Origin: Deltaproteobacteria bacterium
GTDB lineage: Bacteria; Desulfobacterota; Deferrimicrobia; Deferrimicrobiales; Deferrimicrobiaceae
Direction: 5' to 3'
Assembly (NCBI GenBank): GCA_021815305.1
Contig: JAKAHC010000001.1
Span: 248,001 to 312,000 of the forward strand
DNA length: 64,000 nt
This document shows positions 27,185 to 37,483 of the stretch, one piece after another. The position numbers were made by a program, and so were the translations under genes. The notes under the pieces are model-generated. The model saw only the letters and a program-made list of their open reading frames with translations. It did not search any database and had not been told where the DNA came from. Each line of letters begins with the position of its first letter. Within the stretch, counting starts at the first letter, position 1.

Positions 27185-28774
27185 CTATCTTGAGCGCCTG
27201 CCTTCCTCGCATATGCCGAACAACTCGGCCTGCTTGGTCGGGCGTTCGTCATGCGGTAGGAGTTCGGCAAGCTTCGGTACAGGGACGTTGGCGAGTTCCT
27301 TCGGCTCAAGTTTGTGGAGGCCACCGCCATACACACGTCCTTCACCGAGAAGACGCTCGGGTGTTATCTCATTCAATACTTGCCAGACACGGCGTATGAG
27401 TCGGGGGTCGCGCGCAATCGCACGTGCAAGAACGGATGTCGGGTACATAGCCAAGTAGACATTCGCCACTGTGGCTCGCGAGTTATTAAGGATAAACCGG
27501 AATGGACGACCGCTCCTGGTATCCCCACGTCCAAGGTACGTGCAGACAATTGGCGCGGGAGGGCGGTTCTCTTGGCTATACCAAAGTGAACGATGTTGGC
27601 AGAGGTATCGTTCATGGAGCCCGCGGGCCTTTCCCCCCTGAATATAGGCATACAAGGCTGGGAACCGAAACCTGATCTCATTTTCGGGGAGTTTGGTGTC
27701 AAGCAAGTAGAGGCGACGATCGATCTTCGGAACACCGTAATTGTCGGCCGTCACCTCGTCCTCGGCGAGATAGCGTGGGCTGGGAAGAATAGGGCGGAAA
27801 GCCTCCATCGGCAAACCGCGCGCCCGGATTTCATCTTCCGAGAGGATGAAATACGCATTGCCGCCGGTCGCTATTCCACGCTTGATCCGAAAGAAATCCG
27901 CAAGAATCGGGGTGGCTGTTCTTGTGCGTGTACCTGAAGCGGGGAAACGCGTCCACTTCGGCTCATGGGCAAGTACGCTGGCCGCCACTGCGCGCGACAG
28001 TTTCGGCTCAAAAATCGTGCCGCCGAAATCAAAGGTTACTTCGTGATTTCGCGGAGGCGGCGATTTGCGAAACCAGACAATGGCTGACGACACAAGAGCG
28101 TCCGCAAATTGCACATCGTTCGGGTCAAATCGATAGATTCGCAAGAGCGTGACGCGGTCGAGAAGATACTGTTTGACGGCGCGACCATAGTTCACGTCCA
28201 TAAATTCACTCGGAACAAGCCATCCGGCGACGCCACCGTCAGTCATCCATGCGTCGGCCATCCCGATGAAATGGCAGTACAGCCCTGCGAGGCCGCTGAT
28301 TTTCATTCCGCTTGTCTGCTGGGTCTGACTCTGCAGGCGGCATTTTTCGCCATTCTCGAGATGATGGTGCCGCACGTATGGAGGATTACAGATTACGAGG
28401 TTGTAGCGCGGAGATGGGATCGCGTGCGTGAAATCGGCGACCTTTACGGCAAGACCGGCATCCTTCCAGAGGTCGGCGGCAGGAATGCCATAGTACGGAT
28501 CAATCTCGAAGCCGAGGGCCTCGGCAACATATGCCTTATCAAAGACCCTGCGGAGCGCGGAATAGAAGGAGCCGGTGCCGACGGCGGGGTCGAGGAAATG
28601 GATTTTCCGGACGTTCCGCAGAAAGTTCGCCGCATACCTTACGATATCCTCGGCCAAGTCCGGGGGCGTCGCAAACTGGCCGAGGCGGTTTCTTTCGGCC
28701 TGCGTCTTCTTGCGATCCAAGTCCGCCTGGAGCATAAGGCGTTGCTGTTCGAGAATGTGAATCGGTTCACGCAT
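27185..28774 (-). CDS. Type II DNA N6-adenine methyltransferase (Eco57I/XamI family)
   Basis: 529 residues. The SAM-binding motif I DPAVGTGSF (62-70) and the catalytic motif NPPY (130-133) are intact, with the GQFATPP leader (32-38) typical of gamma-class N6-adenine methylases of TaqI/Eco57I type. The C-terminal 250 residues form the target-recognition part. It begins 2 bp after the stop of the endonuclease gene, the usual linked R-M order. Lower GC than chromosomal neighbours indicates transfer. The methylase reads as functional while its endonuclease partner is interrupted. Confidence 0.9.
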   Translation of the reverse strand: MREPIHILEQQRLMLQADLDRKKTQAERNRLGQFATPPDLAEDIVRYAANFLRNVRKIHFLDPAVGTGSFYSALRRVFDKAYVAEALGFEIDPYYGIPAADLWKDAGLAVKVADFTHAIPSPRYNLVICNPPYVRHHHLENGEKCRLQSQTQQTSGMKISGLAGLYCHFIGMADAWMTDGGVAGWLVPSEFMDVNYGRAVKQYLLDRVTLLRIYRFDPNDVQFADALVSSAIVWFRKSPPPRNHEVTFDFGGTIFEPKLSRAVAASVLAHEPKWTRFPASGTRTRTATPILADFFRIKRGIATGGNAYFILSEDEIRARGLPMEAFRPILPSPRYLAEDEVTADNYGVPKIDRRLYLLDTKLPENEIRFRFPALYAYIQGGKARGLHERYLCQHRSLWYSQENRPPAPIVCTYLGRGDTRSGRPFRFILNNSRATVANVYLAMYPTSVLARAIARDPRLIRRVWQVLNEITPERLLGEGRVYGGGLHKLEPKELANVPVPKLAELLPHDERPTKQAELFGICEEGRRSR

Positions 28775-28776
28775 GG

Positions 28777-29739
28777 TCAGATTCCAAAAAGGGCCAAATC
28801 GTCAATGCGATGCTCCCAAACCCAGTCTATCCCCTCCGACGCTTCGTAGCCGAGATATCCGCTGTCGAAGTAGCCGCATAAGAAAAGGTTGAATCGGACC
28901 TTGTCCCCGTACGTACCGCGTAATTGCGCCATTTTCATCGCTTCTTCCTTGCGGCGTTTGTTGGTGTTGGTGAAATCGCCTGCCGATTTCGCTTCAAAGA
29001 ATACGGGGAGCTCTCTGCCCTCCGGTTTCATCTGCATGATGACAGCATCTATCGGAATATTAACGCTCCGGACGCCGCCCTCAAGCTTGCCGGGCACGTT
29101 CATCCGGAAGCTGAAGGTTCCAGCCGGCATCGCGTCGAAGCGCGTACCCTCGCCGCCAGGAAGTTGCCGATAACGACGGGCTTCCAGCCAAACCTTGATG
29201 GCTGCGAGTTGGCGCTTTTCCTGAGCATTGCGAATTATCGGATTGGCGACCGCGCCGCAAAGGCGGTCAGCAACAATGGTGGCTGCCCTATGAGTTTCTG
29301 CCTTTGTTGGTGGCTCTGTTCTTCCGAGCCACACGAAGATGTCCGGATCGGCCATCTTCTCGATCGTCGCAGCGATGTTGGCGAGTTGGACGTCAATCTC
29401 GGCCGCATCTGCGCGGACCGGGAGCTTCTTCTCGGTTTCCATGCATTTGACGAGGTGCGGAGATACTCCGGCGAGGCCAATCAACCGGTCAACCGCGAGA
29501 GGCGGACACGTGGACATTCAAAGCGTGGGAAGTATCTCCGGATGCTCGCGCATAATTGCAGGTTGGACGTCTGTGATGTTCGACGTCCAGTGAAGTGCCG
29601 CTTCCACGTCCTTGGTCGTCTGGATGCGCGTTTCCCGAAACGCACGCGGTGCGAAATTCATAAACCAATCGTTGTACATATCGACCGACTTGACAATGTC
29701 GCTCTTCCATCGGTCCGGCTTGTCCAGGTTGACGGCCAT
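28777..29739 (-). pseudogene. XamI-type restriction endonuclease interrupted by an in-frame TGA
   Basis: Residues 1-73 (MAVNLDKPDRWKSDIVKSVD ... EILPTL) and the following 246 residues (MSTCPPLAVDRLIGLAG ... DDLALFGI) are in the same frame, separated by one TGA codon at 29520-29518. Both parts match what I recall of XamI family endonucleases, where an Arg-like position is expected at the junction, so a single CGA to TGA change would explain it. The downstream part retains a likely nuclease core (PVFFEAKSAGDFTN, with the E-x-K pair). An ATG directly follows the stop, so re-initiation of a truncated protein is possible. Readthrough as selenocysteine is unlikely. Confidence 0.8.
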
Positions 29740-31917: not shown

Positions 31918-33351
31918 TTACAGCTTCCTCAGCCTCCCGGCCCCTGTTCCCGTGTCGTCGATCCCGTACCCGGCGGCGCGGATCCTCTTCCGGAGGACGT
32001 CCGCAACCGCGTAGTCGCCCGCCCTGCGCCGTGCGGCCCGCTCCCGCGCCAACTCCCCGACCTCCCCGGGCACCCCTTCCATCCCGCAGGCGGTTGCACC
32101 CTCGGCTCCGGCTTCGGGGAGCAGGCCGACCGCGAGGATCCCGTCCCATGCTCCGGCGAGGGAGCGAACGGTTTCTCCCCCGATGCCCGATCGCGCCGCA
32201 TCGTGGACCACGGCGAGCGCCCGCGGGAGGTTCAGGTCGTCCTCGAGGGCCGCGCGGAACTTCTCCCGCAGCGTCGTCGCCGCTTCTTCCCCCGCGGTCC
32301 CCGCCGACGCCAGCTTGCGGTAGGCGTCCCGCAAACGGGAGAGGGCCCGGGCGGCCCCGGCCTGCCCCGCCCAGGTGAAATTCATCGGCGAGGCGTAGTG
32401 GAGGATGAGGCAATAATACCGGAATTCCTCCGGGGAGAAACCCCTCCCTCCGCCCGGCGGACCGTTCTCGAGGTCGTCCAGGGTGTACTCGTTCCCCGCC
32501 GATTTCGACATCTTCTTCCCCTCGACCAGCAGGTGGGCGGCGTGCATCCAAAGCGCGGCGAACCGCTTCCCCGTGGCGGCCATGGCCATGGCGCGGGAGT
32601 TCTCGTGGTGCGGGAACCGCAGGTCCGCGCCGCCGACGTGGATGTCGAACTCCGGACCGAGATGCCGGATCGCCATCGCGGCGCACTCGATGTGCCAGCC
32701 GGGCCACCCCCTCCCCCACGGGCTGTCCCACTGGTATTCCCGCCCCGGCTCCGCGGGCATCCAGAGCACGAAATCCTCCGGGCGCTTCTTGTGCCGGTGG
32801 GCGCCGGCCTCCGTCCGGCGGGCGGGGGTTCCCCCTCCCAGGGATGCGCCCGACAGGTCCCCGTACCCGGGGGCTTTCTCCACGTCGAAGTAGAGGTAAC
32901 CGCCCTCGCCGTATGTGACCCCCCGCTCCTCGAGGGATCGCACCAGGGAGATCATCTCGGGGACATGCTCCGAGGCGCGAGGGTAGACGTCCGCCGGCAG
33001 GAAAGCCATCCGGCGGCAATCCCTGAAGAACGCCTCGGTGAAGAACTCCGCGATTTCCCGCGCCGACTTCTTGGCCGCGCGCGCGGCGGCGATCACCTTG
33101 TCCTCCCCGCGCTCCAGCCGTTCCTGGTGCATGTGTCCCACGTCCGTGATGTTCTGCACGGAGCGGGTGCCGTATCCCAGGAAGCGGAGGGAGCGGACGA
33201 GCAGGTCGGTGAGCAGATAGGTCCGGAGGTTGCCGATGTGGGCGTACCGGTAGACGGTGGGACCGCAGGTGTAGATCCCCACCCGCAGCGGGTTCCCGGG
33301 GACGAAGGGGACTTTCCTTCGGACCGCGCTGTCGTGCAGGGAAAGCCCCAC
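31918..33351 (-). CDS. cysS: Cysteinyl-tRNA synthetase
   Basis: 477 residues from GTG 33351 behind GGGAGG. Class I synthetase marks are complete: CGPTVYRYAHIGNLRTY (HIGH-type motif with the first zinc Cys), WHIECAAMA, GGADLRFPHHENSRA (further zinc ligands) and KKMSKSAGN (KMSKS loop), with the anticodon-binding helical domain at the C-terminus. Length is close to the family norm of about 460-480. It is followed by the O-methyltransferase gene. Confidence 0.96.
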   Translation of the reverse strand: MGLSLHDSAVRRKVPFVPGNPLRVGIYTCGPTVYRYAHIGNLRTYLLTDLLVRSLRFLGYGTRSVQNITDVGHMHQERLERGEDKVIAAARAAKKSAREIAEFFTEAFFRDCRRMAFLPADVYPRASEHVPEMISLVRSLEERGVTYGEGGYLYFDVEKAPGYGDLSGASLGGGTPARRTEAGAHRHKKRPEDFVLWMPAEPGREYQWDSPWGRGWPGWHIECAAMAIRHLGPEFDIHVGGADLRFPHHENSRAMAMAATGKRFAALWMHAAHLLVEGKKMSKSAGNEYTLDDLENGPPGGGRGFSPEEFRYYCLILHYASPMNFTWAGQAGAARALSRLRDAYRKLASAGTAGEEAATTLREKFRAALEDDLNLPRALAVVHDAARSGIGGETVRSLAGAWDGILAVGLLPEAGAEGATACGMEGVPGEVGELARERAARRRAGDYAVADVLRKRIRAAGYGIDDTGTGAGRLRKL

Positions 33352-33629: not shown

Positions 33630-34013
33630 TCAGCCCGGGTGCTTTTTCGCGTAGTCGTCGAGCGCGGATTTCACCGCCTGCTCCGCCATCACCGAGCAGT
33701 GGATTTTCACCGCCGGGAGGCCGTCGAGCGCCTCGGCCACCTGCAGGTTGGTGACCGCACGGGCCTCCTCGACGGTCTTCCCCTTGATCATCTCCGTGAG
33801 CATCGAGCTCGACGCGATCGCCGCGCCGCAACCGAAGGTCCGGAACTTCGCGTCCTTGACGCGGCCCTCCTCGATCCTGAGGTAGAGGCGCATCATGTCC
33901 CCGCACGCGGGGTTTCCCACCTCGCCGACGCCGTCGGCGCCGTCGATCTCCCCCACGTTCCGTGGGTTCATGAAATGTTCCATCACCTTCGCGCTGTACG
34001 GTCCTGCCGTCAT
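33630..34013 (-). CDS. iscU: IscU/NifU-type iron-sulfur scaffold
   Basis: 127 residues. The three cluster-binding cysteines are present (GNPACGD, FGCGAAIASSS, IHCSVMAEQAV), with the conserved Asp in ACGD and the N-terminal YSAKVMEHFMNPRNVGEI. It lacks the C-terminal Nfu domain; a separate Nfu-type protein is at 36.5 kb. The gene lies 7 bp downstream of the IscS homologue. The chaperone-binding LPPVK motif is only partly kept (GLPAVKIHC). Confidence 0.92.
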   Translation of the reverse strand: MTAGPYSAKVMEHFMNPRNVGEIDGADGVGEVGNPACGDMMRLYLRIEEGRVKDAKFRTFGCGAAIASSSMLTEMIKGKTVEEARAVTNLQVAEALDGLPAVKIHCSVMAEQAVKSALDDYAKKHPG

Positions 34014-34019
34014 CCCTTT

Positions 34020-35228
34020 CTATCCTCCTTGGGACATCCTCTTCTGGTAGTCCAGGTACGTCGGGGACATCTCGCGCAGCCGTTCCACGATGCGCGGCAG
34101 CGCATCGAGGGCCAGGCGAACCTCCTCTTCGGTGTTCCCCTTCCCCAGGCTGAAGGTGATCGACCCGGTGCAGATGTCGCTCGGCACGCCGATCGCGCGC
34201 AGGACCGGGGACGCGACGAGATCCTCCTCGTCCTGCCCCCTGAGGTTGGAGCTGCAGGCGGAGCCGGATGCGGCCATGATCCCCTTTACGTTCAGAAACA
34301 GCAGGAGAGATTCCCCTTCGGCGTGCTCCACCCAGAAGGATACGTGCCCGGGAAGCCGCTTCGTCGGGTGCCCGGTGAAATGGAGCAAGGGAATGCCGGA
34401 GAGCCCGTCCCACAACATCTTCCCGAGGCGGCCGAGGTGGTCCGCCCAATGCCCCATCTCCTTCGAAGCGATGGCGGCGGCGGCCGCCATGGCGACGATC
34501 CCCGGGACGTTCTCGGTCCCCGCCCGGTACCCCATTTCCTGGAACCCTCCGAAAACCCGGGGGGCCACCTTCGTCCCCTCGCGGACAAAGAGCGCTCCGG
34601 TCCCTTTCGGGCCGTAGAAATTGTGCGACGACAGCGTGACCAGGTCGGCCGGCACCTCCCGCACGTCCAGGGGGATGTGCCCGGCGGACGCGGTGGCGTC
34701 CACGTGGAAGGGAACGCCGGCCTCCCGGGCGATCCTCCCGATCTCGGCCACCGGCTCGATCGTCCCGATCTCGGAGTTGGCGTGCATCACCGAAAGGAGC
34801 GCCGTGTCGCCGCGGAGGGCCGATCGGACCGCGTCGGGATCCACCAGGCCGTCCCGGTCCACGGGCAGGACCGTCACCTCGTACCCCGCGTTTCGCAGAG
34901 GGATCAGCGCGTTCATCACGGAGAAGTGCTCGATCCCGGAAACGACCGCGTGCCGCTTCCCGTTCCCCGCTTCCTCCGCCGTCCCGAGGACGGCGAGATT
35001 GTTCGATTCGGTCGCCCCCGAGGTGAAGACGATTTCGCCGGGTTTCGCCCCGATCAGCGCGGCCACCTCCGAACGCGCCTTGTCCACGGCGCGAAGCGCC
35101 GCCTGCCCCTGGTCGTGAATGTGGGAGGACGGATTGCCGTACCACTCCAGGAGGTACGGTTTCATCGCCTCGAACACCCTCGAATCGAGGGGGGTGGTGG
35201 AGATGTGATCGAAAAAAACCTTGGCCAT
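34020..35228 (-). CDS. iscS: IscS-family cysteine desulfurase homologue lacking the PLP lysine
   Basis: 402 residues from ATG 35228. The fold and most active-site residues are kept: GNPSSHIHDQG, TSGATESNNLA, the PLP-stacking His101 (IEHFSV), Asp178 in HVDATASAG, and the mobile-loop Cys325 in SGSACSS. At the Schiff-base position, where IscS has SGHK, this protein has SSHN (Asn203; codon AAT is clear). Asn203 is followed by an intact FYGPKG. From memory, Archaeoglobus IscS similarly lacks this lysine (Asp) and shares HIDATASVG and an RLRSMSPLY end; here the end is RLREMSPTY. It may act as a scaffold or sulfur relay partner for IscU, or use another lysine. A classical IscS is not seen in the window. 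Confidence 0.88.
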   Translation of the reverse strand: MAKVFFDHISTTPLDSRVFEAMKPYLLEWYGNPSSHIHDQGQAALRAVDKARSEVAALIGAKPGEIVFTSGATESNNLAVLGTAEEAGNGKRHAVVSGIEHFSVMNALIPLRNAGYEVTVLPVDRDGLVDPDAVRSALRGDTALLSVMHANSEIGTIEPVAEIGRIAREAGVPFHVDATASAGHIPLDVREVPADLVTLSSHNFYGPKGTGALFVREGTKVAPRVFGGFQEMGYRAGTENVPGIVAMAAAAAIASKEMGHWADHLGRLGKMLWDGLSGIPLLHFTGHPTKRLPGHVSFWVEHAEGESLLLFLNVKGIMAASGSACSSNLRGQDEEDLVASPVLRAIGVPSDICTGSITFSLGKGNTEEEVRLALDALPRIVERLREMSPTYLDYQKRMSQGG

Positions 35229-35250: not shown

Positions 35251-35448
35251 TCACGGTTTGACGTGGAACTGCTCCATCTTCTCCCGGATGAGCCGGATGT
35301 GCTTGCGCTCCTCGTCCGCCAGGAAGCGGAACATCGCCTTGACGCCGGGGACCGTCGCCTCGGCGGCGTTCTTCTCGTAGTCCCCGAAGTTCTCCTCTTC
35401 GAGCCGCAGCGCCATCCGCAGCGCCTCTTCCATGGACCAGTTCGCCAT
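35251..35448 (-). CDS. 65-residue ferritin-like (half-rubrerythrin) protein, paralogue
   Basis: 65 residues from ATG 35448 with GGAGGAG upstream. Helices MANWSMEEALRMALRLEEEN and VKAMFRFLADEERKHIRLIREKME carry the E...Y and ExxH pattern. Length and layout equal those of the protein at 33387-33584. The stop is 22 bp before the IscS homologue start, so it heads the iscS-iscU unit. Possible iron handling or peroxide detoxification near iron-sulfur assembly; a function is not proven. Confidence 0.7.
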   Translation of the reverse strand: MANWSMEEALRMALRLEEENFGDYEKNAAEATVPGVKAMFRFLADEERKHIRLIREKMEQFHVKP

Positions 35449-35577: not shown

Positions 35578-35668
35578 CTGAAAAAGCGCGTCGCACAACC
35601 CGTTATTGTCCGACGGAAGCCATCGGTCGAGCGCAAATCACCCCCTGAGGATCAAGGGAGGATCGTGG

Positions 35669-36238
35669 ATGAACCAGGTTGCCAAGTCGAAAAACGGAAT
35701 GGGGGCGCTGCCGCTCTTCCTCATCCTGGTCGTCGTGTTCCTGGGCGCCTATCTTCTCTACAGGAACTGGCAAAGCGGGACGGCGCCGAACGAAGCCGCG
35801 ACTTCCCGCGGCCCCGTCGCGGAGGGATCCCGGACGGTGCCGGCGTTTTCCCTCAAGGACACGAACGGAAACCTGTACTCTTCCTCCCGGTTCGCGGGAA
35901 AACCCACCGTCATCAATTTCTTCGCAACCTGGTGTCCCCCGTGCCGCGCCGAGATCCCCGGTTTCGTGGAGGTCTACAACGAGCACAAGGCCCAGGGGCT
36001 CGAGATGATCGGCATCTCCCTGGACACCGACACGAAAGGGGACCTCGCGGGATTCATCATGAGCAACAGGATCAGCTACAGGATCCTGTTCGGTGACCTG
36101 GCCACCGCGCGGGAGTACGGGGGGGTCTCCTCCCTTCCCACGACGTTCTTCGTGGACAAGGACGGGCAGATCCGGAACGTCCACATCGGCTACATGGAGA
36201 AGGAAGAATTCGAGCGGGAAGTGCGGAAACTGCTGTGA
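35669..36238 (+). CDS. Membrane-anchored TlpA/ResA-like thioredoxin
   Basis: 189 residues from ATG 35669, chosen because AGGGAGGAT precedes it. One membrane anchor (about residues 13-32) is followed by a periplasmic thioredoxin-fold AhpC-TSA/TlpA domain: VPAFSLKDTNGN, FFATWCPPCRAEIPGF with the redox CPPC, the LPTTFFVDKDGQI cis-Pro region and GYMEKEEFEREV. Such proteins reduce apocytochrome cysteines before haem attachment or act as general thiol reductants; either suits a cytochrome-rich organism. No ccm gene is nearby. Confidence 0.88.
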   Translation: MNQVAKSKNGMGALPLFLILVVVFLGAYLLYRNWQSGTAPNEAATSRGPVAEGSRTVPAFSLKDTNGNLYSSSRFAGKPTVINFFATWCPPCRAEIPGFVEVYNEHKAQGLEMIGISLDTDTKGDLAGFIMSNRISYRILFGDLATAREYGGVSSLPTTFFVDKDGQIRNVHIGYMEKEEFEREVRKLL

Positions 36239-36350: not shown

Positions 36351-36521
36351 TTACGCCGGAACGGCGGCTCCGGTAGGGCACACGCCTGCGCACGCCGCGC
36401 AATCCGTGCACTTGCTCGCGTCGATCGTGTAAATCGGGTCCCCTTCCGCGATGCACTGGGCGGGGCACTCCGGCGCGCAGGCGCCGCAGGCAATGCACTC
36501 CTCCGTGATCTTGTACGCCAT
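36351..36521 (-). CDS. 2[4Fe-4S] ferredoxin
   Basis: 56 residues from ATG 36521 behind GGAGGT. Two cluster motifs, CIACGACAPECP (near residue 9) and CTDCAACAGVCP (near residue 38), fit the clostridial-type low-potential ferredoxin. It is a soluble electron carrier. It lies just downstream of the Nfu-type gene. Confidence 0.93.
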   Translation of the reverse strand: MAYKITEECIACGACAPECPAQCIAEGDPIYTIDASKCTDCAACAGVCPTGAAVPA

Positions 36522-36547: not shown

Positions 36548-36766
36548 TTATACGGACTCCACCCGCTCCACGGCGGGGATCCGTTCCTTGAGCGCCGCCT
36601 CGATTCCACCCTTCAACGTCATCGTGGCCATCGGGCAGCCTCCGCATGCGCCGACAAGGCGCACCTTCACCACGCCCCCCTCGATGTCGACAAGTTCCAC
36701 GTCTCCCCCGTCGGCCTGGAGGGCGGGGCGAATGCTGTCCAATACCTTCTCTACTTCGGGTCTCAC
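36548..36766 (-). CDS. Nfu-type iron-sulfur carrier (NifU C-terminal domain)
   Basis: 72 residues from GTG 36766 with AGGAGG 10 nt upstream. It is a stand-alone NifU C-terminal domain: VEKVLDSIRPALQADGGDVELVDI and the cluster-binding CGGCPMA with the CXXC motif. It probably receives or delivers [4Fe-4S] clusters, fitting the adjacent ferredoxin and the nearby IscU scaffold. Confidence 0.92.
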   Translation of the reverse strand: MRPEVEKVLDSIRPALQADGGDVELVDIEGGVVKVRLVGACGGCPMATMTLKGGIEAALKERIPAVERVESV

Positions 36767-36844: not shown

Positions 36845-37483
36845 TCAATCGGCGGAAACCAGATCGAATCCCGCCTTCTTGATCGCGGCCTTCAGCACCT
36901 TGTAGCTCCTGGTCTCGAACCGGATGATGTTGTTGATTTTCGCCGGGTCCTCGTGGGGCGCCGTCGCCACCGACACGATGTTCGCATCGAAGTCCTTGAA
37001 CAGCTTGAGCAGCTCGAGGAGTTTCCCCGGCCGGTTCGGCAGCGCAAGCTCGATGCGGTACCCCGGGCCGTTCACGCCCATCCCCGCGATGAACGCATCG
37101 ATGATGTCCGTCTCCGTCAGGATCCCCACGAGACGGCCGTTGTCCACCACCGGAAGGCATCCGATCTTCTTCTCCCGGATGATCAGGGCCGCCTCCTCGA
37201 TGGGGGCCGTGGAAGAGACGGTGTAGGGGCGCCGGGTCATGATCTGCTTCACCTTGACCTTGTCGAGCAGGTAGTAGATCTCGCGGATCTCGAGCGCCGT
37301 CGCCGGGGAAGGGGAGGCCTGCTTGATGTCCCGCTCGGAGAGGATGCCGACGAGTTTCTCCCCGTCCTTCATGACCGGCAAATGCCGTATCTCGTGCTCC
37401 TTCAGCAGGTCCATCGCCTTCTTCATCGAGTCGCCTTCATCCACGAACACCGGGTTCCTCTTCATCCGTTTGGCGACGATCAT
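36845..37483 (-). CDS. AcuB-like CBS-CBS-ACT protein
   Basis: 212 residues. Two CBS motifs (about 1-60 and 75-135: EIRHLPVMKDGEKLVGILSERDI, IGCLPVVDNGRLVGILTETDIIDAF) are followed by an ACT-like domain (LALPNRPGKLLELLKLFKDFDANIVSV). This order is that of AcuB family proteins, thought to sense adenylates or amino acids and to influence acetate/acetoin use. A second copy is at 47551-48210 beside an AcuC-like gene. Confidence 0.85.
   Translation of the reverse strand: MIVAKRMKRNPVFVDEGDSMKKAMDLLKEHEIRHLPVMKDGEKLVGILSERDIKQASPSPATALEIREIYYLLDKVKVKQIMTRRPYTVSSTAPIEEAALIIREKKIGCLPVVDNGRLVGILTETDIIDAFIAGMGVNGPGYRIELALPNRPGKLLELLKLFKDFDANIVSVATAPHEDPAKINNIIRFETRSYKVLKAAIKKAGFDLVSAD

Follow-up and report, generated by a model that had tools for sequence, protein, structure and literature searches.

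The window, by which we mean the whole 64,000-nucleotide stretch of deltaproteobacterial DNA analysed here, encodes a class I cysteine-desulfurase homologue that lacks the Schiff-base lysine and that, judging from its sequence, we take with a probability of roughly 0.55 to be a desulfurase-dead IscS, retained as an obligate partner for the single IscU of the cell and acting in the manner of Archaeoglobus IscS. The usual view is that a cysteine desulfurase starts iron–sulfur (Fe–S) cluster assembly. In the present case the sole detected scaffold has a conserved partner that has jointly lost three catalytic residues, and the scaffold, carrier, ferredoxin-like, and rubrerythrin-type neighbours are kept family-wide. 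With the catalytic residues lost from the scaffold's partner, cells of this group of uncultured bacteria probably build their clusters with sulfur supplied otherwise than by cysteine desulfuration on this protein, perhaps as sulfide. The old question of whether sulfide can feed cluster assembly in living bacteria could thereby be put to the test with few, well-defined genes. The case also cautions that some genes now labelled as cysteine desulfurases probably are not.

Joint loss of active-site residues

The gene and the positions that bear on its activity are the following.

34020..35228, minus strand: iscS, class I cysteine-desulfurase homologue without the Schiff-base Lys, 402 amino acids
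34620..34622 (plus-strand positions), minus strand: codon 203, AAT, Asn, at the E. coli IscS Lys206 position
34689..34691, minus strand: codon 180, Ala, in place of Gln183 (alignment)
34254..34256, minus strand: codon 325, catalytic-loop Cys, retained (alignment)
34227..34247, minus strand: seven inserted residues following the catalytic Cys, around NLRGQDE (alignment; loop 326-337 low-confidence in the model)
34155..34157, minus strand: codon 358, Thr, at the position of the substrate-carboxylate Arg354 (alignment; role of Arg354 from PMC9978102)

The translated open reading frame begins MAKVFFDHIS. The initial annotation had read Asn (AAT, within SSHN) in place of the Schiff-base Lys, and alignment bears this out: the region runs SSHNFYGPKG in the window, SGHKIYGPKG in E. 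coli IscS, and SSNDIYGPKG in Archaeoglobus IscS, and Asn occupies the site in every family or class orthologue recovered, save two with His. A sequencing error at codon 203, a pseudogene, or a drifting paralogue would have the missing residue itself as its sole support, and is rejected as vanishingly improbable: codon 203 is AAT or AAC in nine of ten orthologues and CAT in the other, dN/dS against ten orthologues is 0.14–0.26, which indicates purifying selection, and more than 20 genomes carry the same residue in conserved synteny. Of 395 genomes of the phylum, 14 match the pattern His-[Asn/Asp]-x-Tyr-Gly-Pro-Lys-Gly, each of them from the window's own family or class; it also occurs outside the phylum, in Zixiibacteriota and Nitrospirae records. 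The record JAENIX01 (L046/L040), titled Actinomycetota, holds an 84%-identical orthologue at the coordinates of genome G019 of the window's family, and its title looks wrong.

In E. coli IscS, His104, Asp180, Gln183, Lys206, and Cys328 are reported to be indispensable, and Arg354, whose counterpart in H. pylori NifS is bound to the substrate carboxylate in an intermediate, can be changed to Lys (R354K) with activity remaining (PMC9978102). With Lys, Arg, and Gln gone, only three of the six residues examined in that work remain in the window protein. The view that the Cys loop and the other PLP contacts remained thus stands in part: His101, Asp177, and Cys325 are retained (E. coli His104, Asp180, and Cys328), as is the class I Cys motif SGSAC, but the Gln183 that hydrogen-bonds PLP has become Ala180, Arg354 has become Thr358, and the loop has gained seven residues. 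In a survey of 97 IscS homologues (the study loci together with the E. coli and Archaeoglobus proteins and a single sequence from PDB), both Arg and Gln are present in 55 of 55 Lys-bearing proteins and both are gone in 42 of 42 Lys-less ones, counts drawn from rows related by descent and therefore not independent events; on independent branches, the co-loss of Lys and Arg comes to two to three pairs, too few to reach significance. The equivalents of His104, Asp180, and Cys328 are invariant (97/97). The residue replacing Lys is Asn in 24 of the 42, Gln in 9, Pro in 3, Asp in 2, and Ala, His, Leu, or Ser in 1 each.

The window protein matches PF00266 (the aminotransferase class V fold) at 1.3e-77, and its AlphaFold2 model, with a mean pLDDT of 90 that falls below 50 only at loop 326-337, gives TM values of 0.93 to NFS1 and 0.90 to Archaeoglobus IscS. 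Its best NCBIfam score, 415.7 bits to TIGR03402 against a cut-off of 530.75, says little, since the Lys-bearing paralogue also falls short at 497.4. L033 and the Asn group both keep the insertion after the catalytic Cys (SACSSNLRGQDEEDL), and no Lys-less group outside the Asn/Leu clade shows it; the loop is of normal length in the Nitrospirae proteins and in the Asn protein of genome G021. The latter (L032 1-1032, identical to L058) ends at a contig edge; recombination, a join made during assembly, or a form of intermediate character may account for it.

The iscS–iscU island and the rest of the genome

The gene is embedded in an island whose other members, in addition to iscS itself, are these.

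36845..37483, minus strand: CBS-ACT protein, conserved upstream island member
36557..36754, minus strand: Nfu (NifU C-domain) carrier
36354..36521, minus strand: small protein carrying a pair of CxxCxxC motifs of the ferredoxin type, conserved beside Nfu (sequence reading)
35606..36238, plus strand: TlpA/AhpC-TSA-like thiol-disulfide protein, divergent, between the ferredoxin and hFtn1
35254..35448, minus strand: half-rubrerythrin hFtn1, 65 amino acids, PF02915, immediately upstream of iscS
33630..34013, minus strand: iscU scaffold with C37, D39, C62, K103, H105, and C106, the only NifU_N match in the genome
33390..33569, minus strand: half-rubrerythrin hFtn2, 60 amino acids, PF02915, downstream of iscU
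31918..33351, minus strand: cysS-like gene, with an inferred start codon and with motifs of the HIGH and KMSKS types seen in its sequence

Throughout the family the genes keep the order Nfu, ferredoxin, half-rubrerythrin, iscS, iscU, half-rubrerythrin, cysS. Among 13 relatives with the pair (L068–L080), Nfu, the TlpA gene, and hFtn1 are found in all 13, the ferredoxin-like gene and hFtn2 in 12 each, and cysS in 11; the one locus without hFtn2 stops short of it at a contig end. An iscS–iscU pair flanked by ferritin-like proteins had been described from the outset, and the flanking proteins prove to be half-length rubrerythrin domains with conserved Glu and His positions. A longer rubrerythrin-like protein lies beside the Lys-less iscS or iscU in the Zixiibacteriota-type loci L055, L056, and L059. 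A third rubrerythrin, of about 155 amino acids, is placed between iscU and hFtn2 in relatives (L071 6363-6827, L078 4123-4569, and L021 3105-3581), and none was noticed in the window.

Lys-less IscS genes lie within 1 kb of iscU in 34 of 36 placed cases and Lys-bearing ones in 16 of 53; within the family and class alone, the corresponding counts are 20/20 and 0/24. The Cys, Asp, Lys, and His ligand residues of IscU are intact in 42/42. In the window genome, a draft of 2.77 Mb in 13 contigs that is about 97% complete, profile search found one NifU_N protein, adjoining the Lys-less iscS, and one Nfu, that of the island. SufB/D (PF01458, SUFBD) was not found there, with 14 of 14 controls positive, and with this core protein absent the genome does not qualify as carrying SUF or SMS. 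Neither an A-type carrier nor HscB was detected in the genome, the latter absence being ordinary, as E. coli alone was positive among the controls. Across 26 family and class genomes, exactly one NifU_N is present in 23 and SUFBD is absent from 23.

The initial annotation had called for a genome search for a classical desulfurase. This search was positive, and the notion of a desulfurase-free cell is rejected: C3 and C4 hold Lys-bearing paralogues, and C6 holds a SufS-like protein. A classical Lys-bearing IscS occupies a separate locus, cysE-iscR-iscS-mnmA-mtaB, adjoining a tRNA-thiolation gene, and Lys-bearing IscS is accompanied by cysE, mnmA, and mtaB in 16 of 16 relatives examined and by iscR in 15. 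At C4 (L089 6132-7905), DsrE/F-like and DnaJ-like open reading frames, neighbours that were named by eye, flank a second IscS-like gene that bears the Lys. Siroheme sulfite/nitrite reductase (NIR_SIR, PF01077) was not detected in the genome, and dissimilatory sulfate reduction as a sulfide source is rejected for want of DsrA; with neither enzyme present, the cell probably takes up reduced sulfur. The genome carries cysE (the serine acetyltransferase gene) despite the lack of a detected PF01077 match.

Phylogeny and kindred systems

The Lys-less proteins share one region of the tree, with a few Lys-bearing ones interspersed. The best tree has three changes of Lys state, and a single change appears in 0 of 200 bootstrap trees; the AU test, however, does not reject uniting the Lys-less rows in one clade (p 0.266), and a single origin with Archaeoglobus IscS, which we do not adopt, is possible. 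The Archaeoglobus protein groups with L147, a bacterial Asp protein (100/99), and the phylogenetic check proposed with the initial annotation places the window protein outside this subclade. The PDB sequence closest to the window protein, from Lys-bearing desulfurase variants (PDB 9wep to 9wfy), stands among the Lys-less rows in the tree.

Archaeoglobus fulgidus IscS (IscS 2; PDB 4eb5, 4eb7, and 4hvk, with the D199K mutant 4r5f) had been named as a natural precedent with Asp at the Lys site and shared HIDATAS and MSP-Y features, correctly so, as 4eb5 reads HIDATAS, SSND, and MSPLY. It is described in PMC7585200 as being without desulfurase activity, and its Cys is stated there to ligate the cluster on IscU. 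The window protein resembles it in the replacement of Lys (Asp in Archaeoglobus), the change of Gln183 to Ala, the loss of the carboxylate Arg (Leu in Archaeoglobus), the kept equivalents of His104, Asp180, and Cys328, the iscS–iscU pairing, and the fold (TM 0.90), and so combines the replaced Lys with the retained Cys and IscU partner that mark the Archaeoglobus kind. It differs in having Asn rather than Asp at the site, preceded by His rather than Asn, a Cys loop longer by seven residues, a bacterial host, a separate position in the tree, and a locus with half-rubrerythrins, Nfu, and ferredoxin. Methanosarcina acetivorans IscS1 (MA0808), according to PMC7585200, likewise lacks the catalytic Lys and belongs to an iscSU pair, but its genome also holds SUF genes and another two iscSU pairs, whereas in the window genome IscU is single and SUF is absent. 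Lys-less IscS is thus already known in archaea, and the window protein is a bacterial variant of that sort. Our literature search, whose coverage left out most subscription papers and which is accordingly weak evidence of novelty, returned no paper on a bacterial Lys-less IscS.

Two further systems invite comparison, both as given in PMC12192291. The minimal ISC system (MIS), described with a cysteine desulfurase and no carrier, is paralleled in the window genome by an IscS–IscU pair without A-type carrier or HscB, but the protein paired here is one from which Lys, Arg, and Gln of the active site are gone, and an Nfu lies nearby. SMS (SmsCB of Methanocaldococcus) assembles Fe–S clusters from sulfide with no desulfurase partner; the window genome would resemble it in having no desulfurase as partner and, by inference, in using sulfide, yet the SMS scaffold is of the SufBC type, whereas that of the window is IscU, with SufB/D absent.

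Sulfur supply and competing readings

If the window IscS acts as a desulfurase-dead partner, it would form an (IscS–IscU)2 complex in which Cys325, on its longer loop, is offered to the nascent cluster; by analogy with Archaeoglobus IscS, this Cys is probably a cluster ligand. Sulfur would arrive as sulfide, or as persulfide from elsewhere, ferredoxin would supply electrons, and clusters would exit through Nfu. The half-rubrerythrins may buffer iron, and their role in iron supply is a guess from proximity. Under anaerobic conditions, IscU in E. coli lacking iscS can reportedly draw its sulfur from sulfide (PMC13015791). The early suggestion of an unusual Fe–S assembly route has therefore gained strong, if circumstantial, support from the sole IscU, the lack of SUF, the conserved half-rubrerythrins, and the Nfu–ferredoxin–iscSU island. 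A wider division of labour, with the Lys-bearing IscS serving tRNA thiolation and the sole scaffold with its desulfurase-dead IscS drawing on environmental sulfide and half-rubrerythrin iron, is offered tentatively, as a possibility rather than an expectation; if true, this split sulfur economy would be the ISC-type counterpart, in bacteria, of the sulfide-fed SMS.

The dead-partner interpretation is favoured by the co-loss of Lys, Arg, and Gln, the linkage to iscU, the intact IscU ligands, and the separate Lys-bearing IscS near mnmA. Counting against it are the draft state of the genome, at about 97% completeness, the Lys-bearing desulfurases it encodes, one of them beside an IscR-like gene that hints at a role in Fe–S supply there too, and the invariance among Lys-less proteins of His101 and Asp177 in the PLP pocket, residues that a protein acting purely as a structural platform could do without; a pocket so kept possibly holds non-covalent PLP or another ligand. 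It is from these residues that a residual desulfurase could be built, with PLP held by His101, Asp177, and the phosphate site and a free PLP–cysteine aldimine, formed in the pocket, attacked slowly by Cys325. The suggestion that E. coli K206A reacts at a very low rate (PMC9978102) lends itself to this reading and also tells against a dead partner, but the loss of Gln183 and the carboxylate Arg should weaken substrate binding, and Archaeoglobus IscS is inactive according to PMC7585200, so that we consider slow turnover improbable.

A sulfur relay, in which Cys325 receives persulfide from the Lys-bearing IscS, or from some other source, for transfer to IscU in the manner of SufE or TusA, seems unlikely, if less so. 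It would make sense of a Cys325 that is invariant in all 42 Lys-less proteins, of the longer, flexible loop, and of a Lys-bearing IscS present across the family in a conserved operon; the two loci, however, are joined by no sulfur-transfer gene, the Lys-bearing gene adjoins mnmA, likely its own client, and the loop insertion is missing from Lys-less groups outside the Asn/Leu clade. That same Lys-bearing IscS might instead deliver sulfur by exchanging on the same face of IscU, with the Lys-less protein merely stabilising or gating the scaffold. Such a regulatory role, which accords with the pseudoenzyme residue signature, the near-invariable iscU linkage, and the presence of both forms in one genome, sits poorly with the retention of the cluster-proximal Cys325 and with a Lys-bearing IscS that is never beside iscU in the family or class, and we rate it the most doubtful of the three.

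Elsewhere in the window, positions 27185-29517 encode a probable N6-adenine DNA methyltransferase with an NPPY motif, and the adjacent gene may be its restriction partner.
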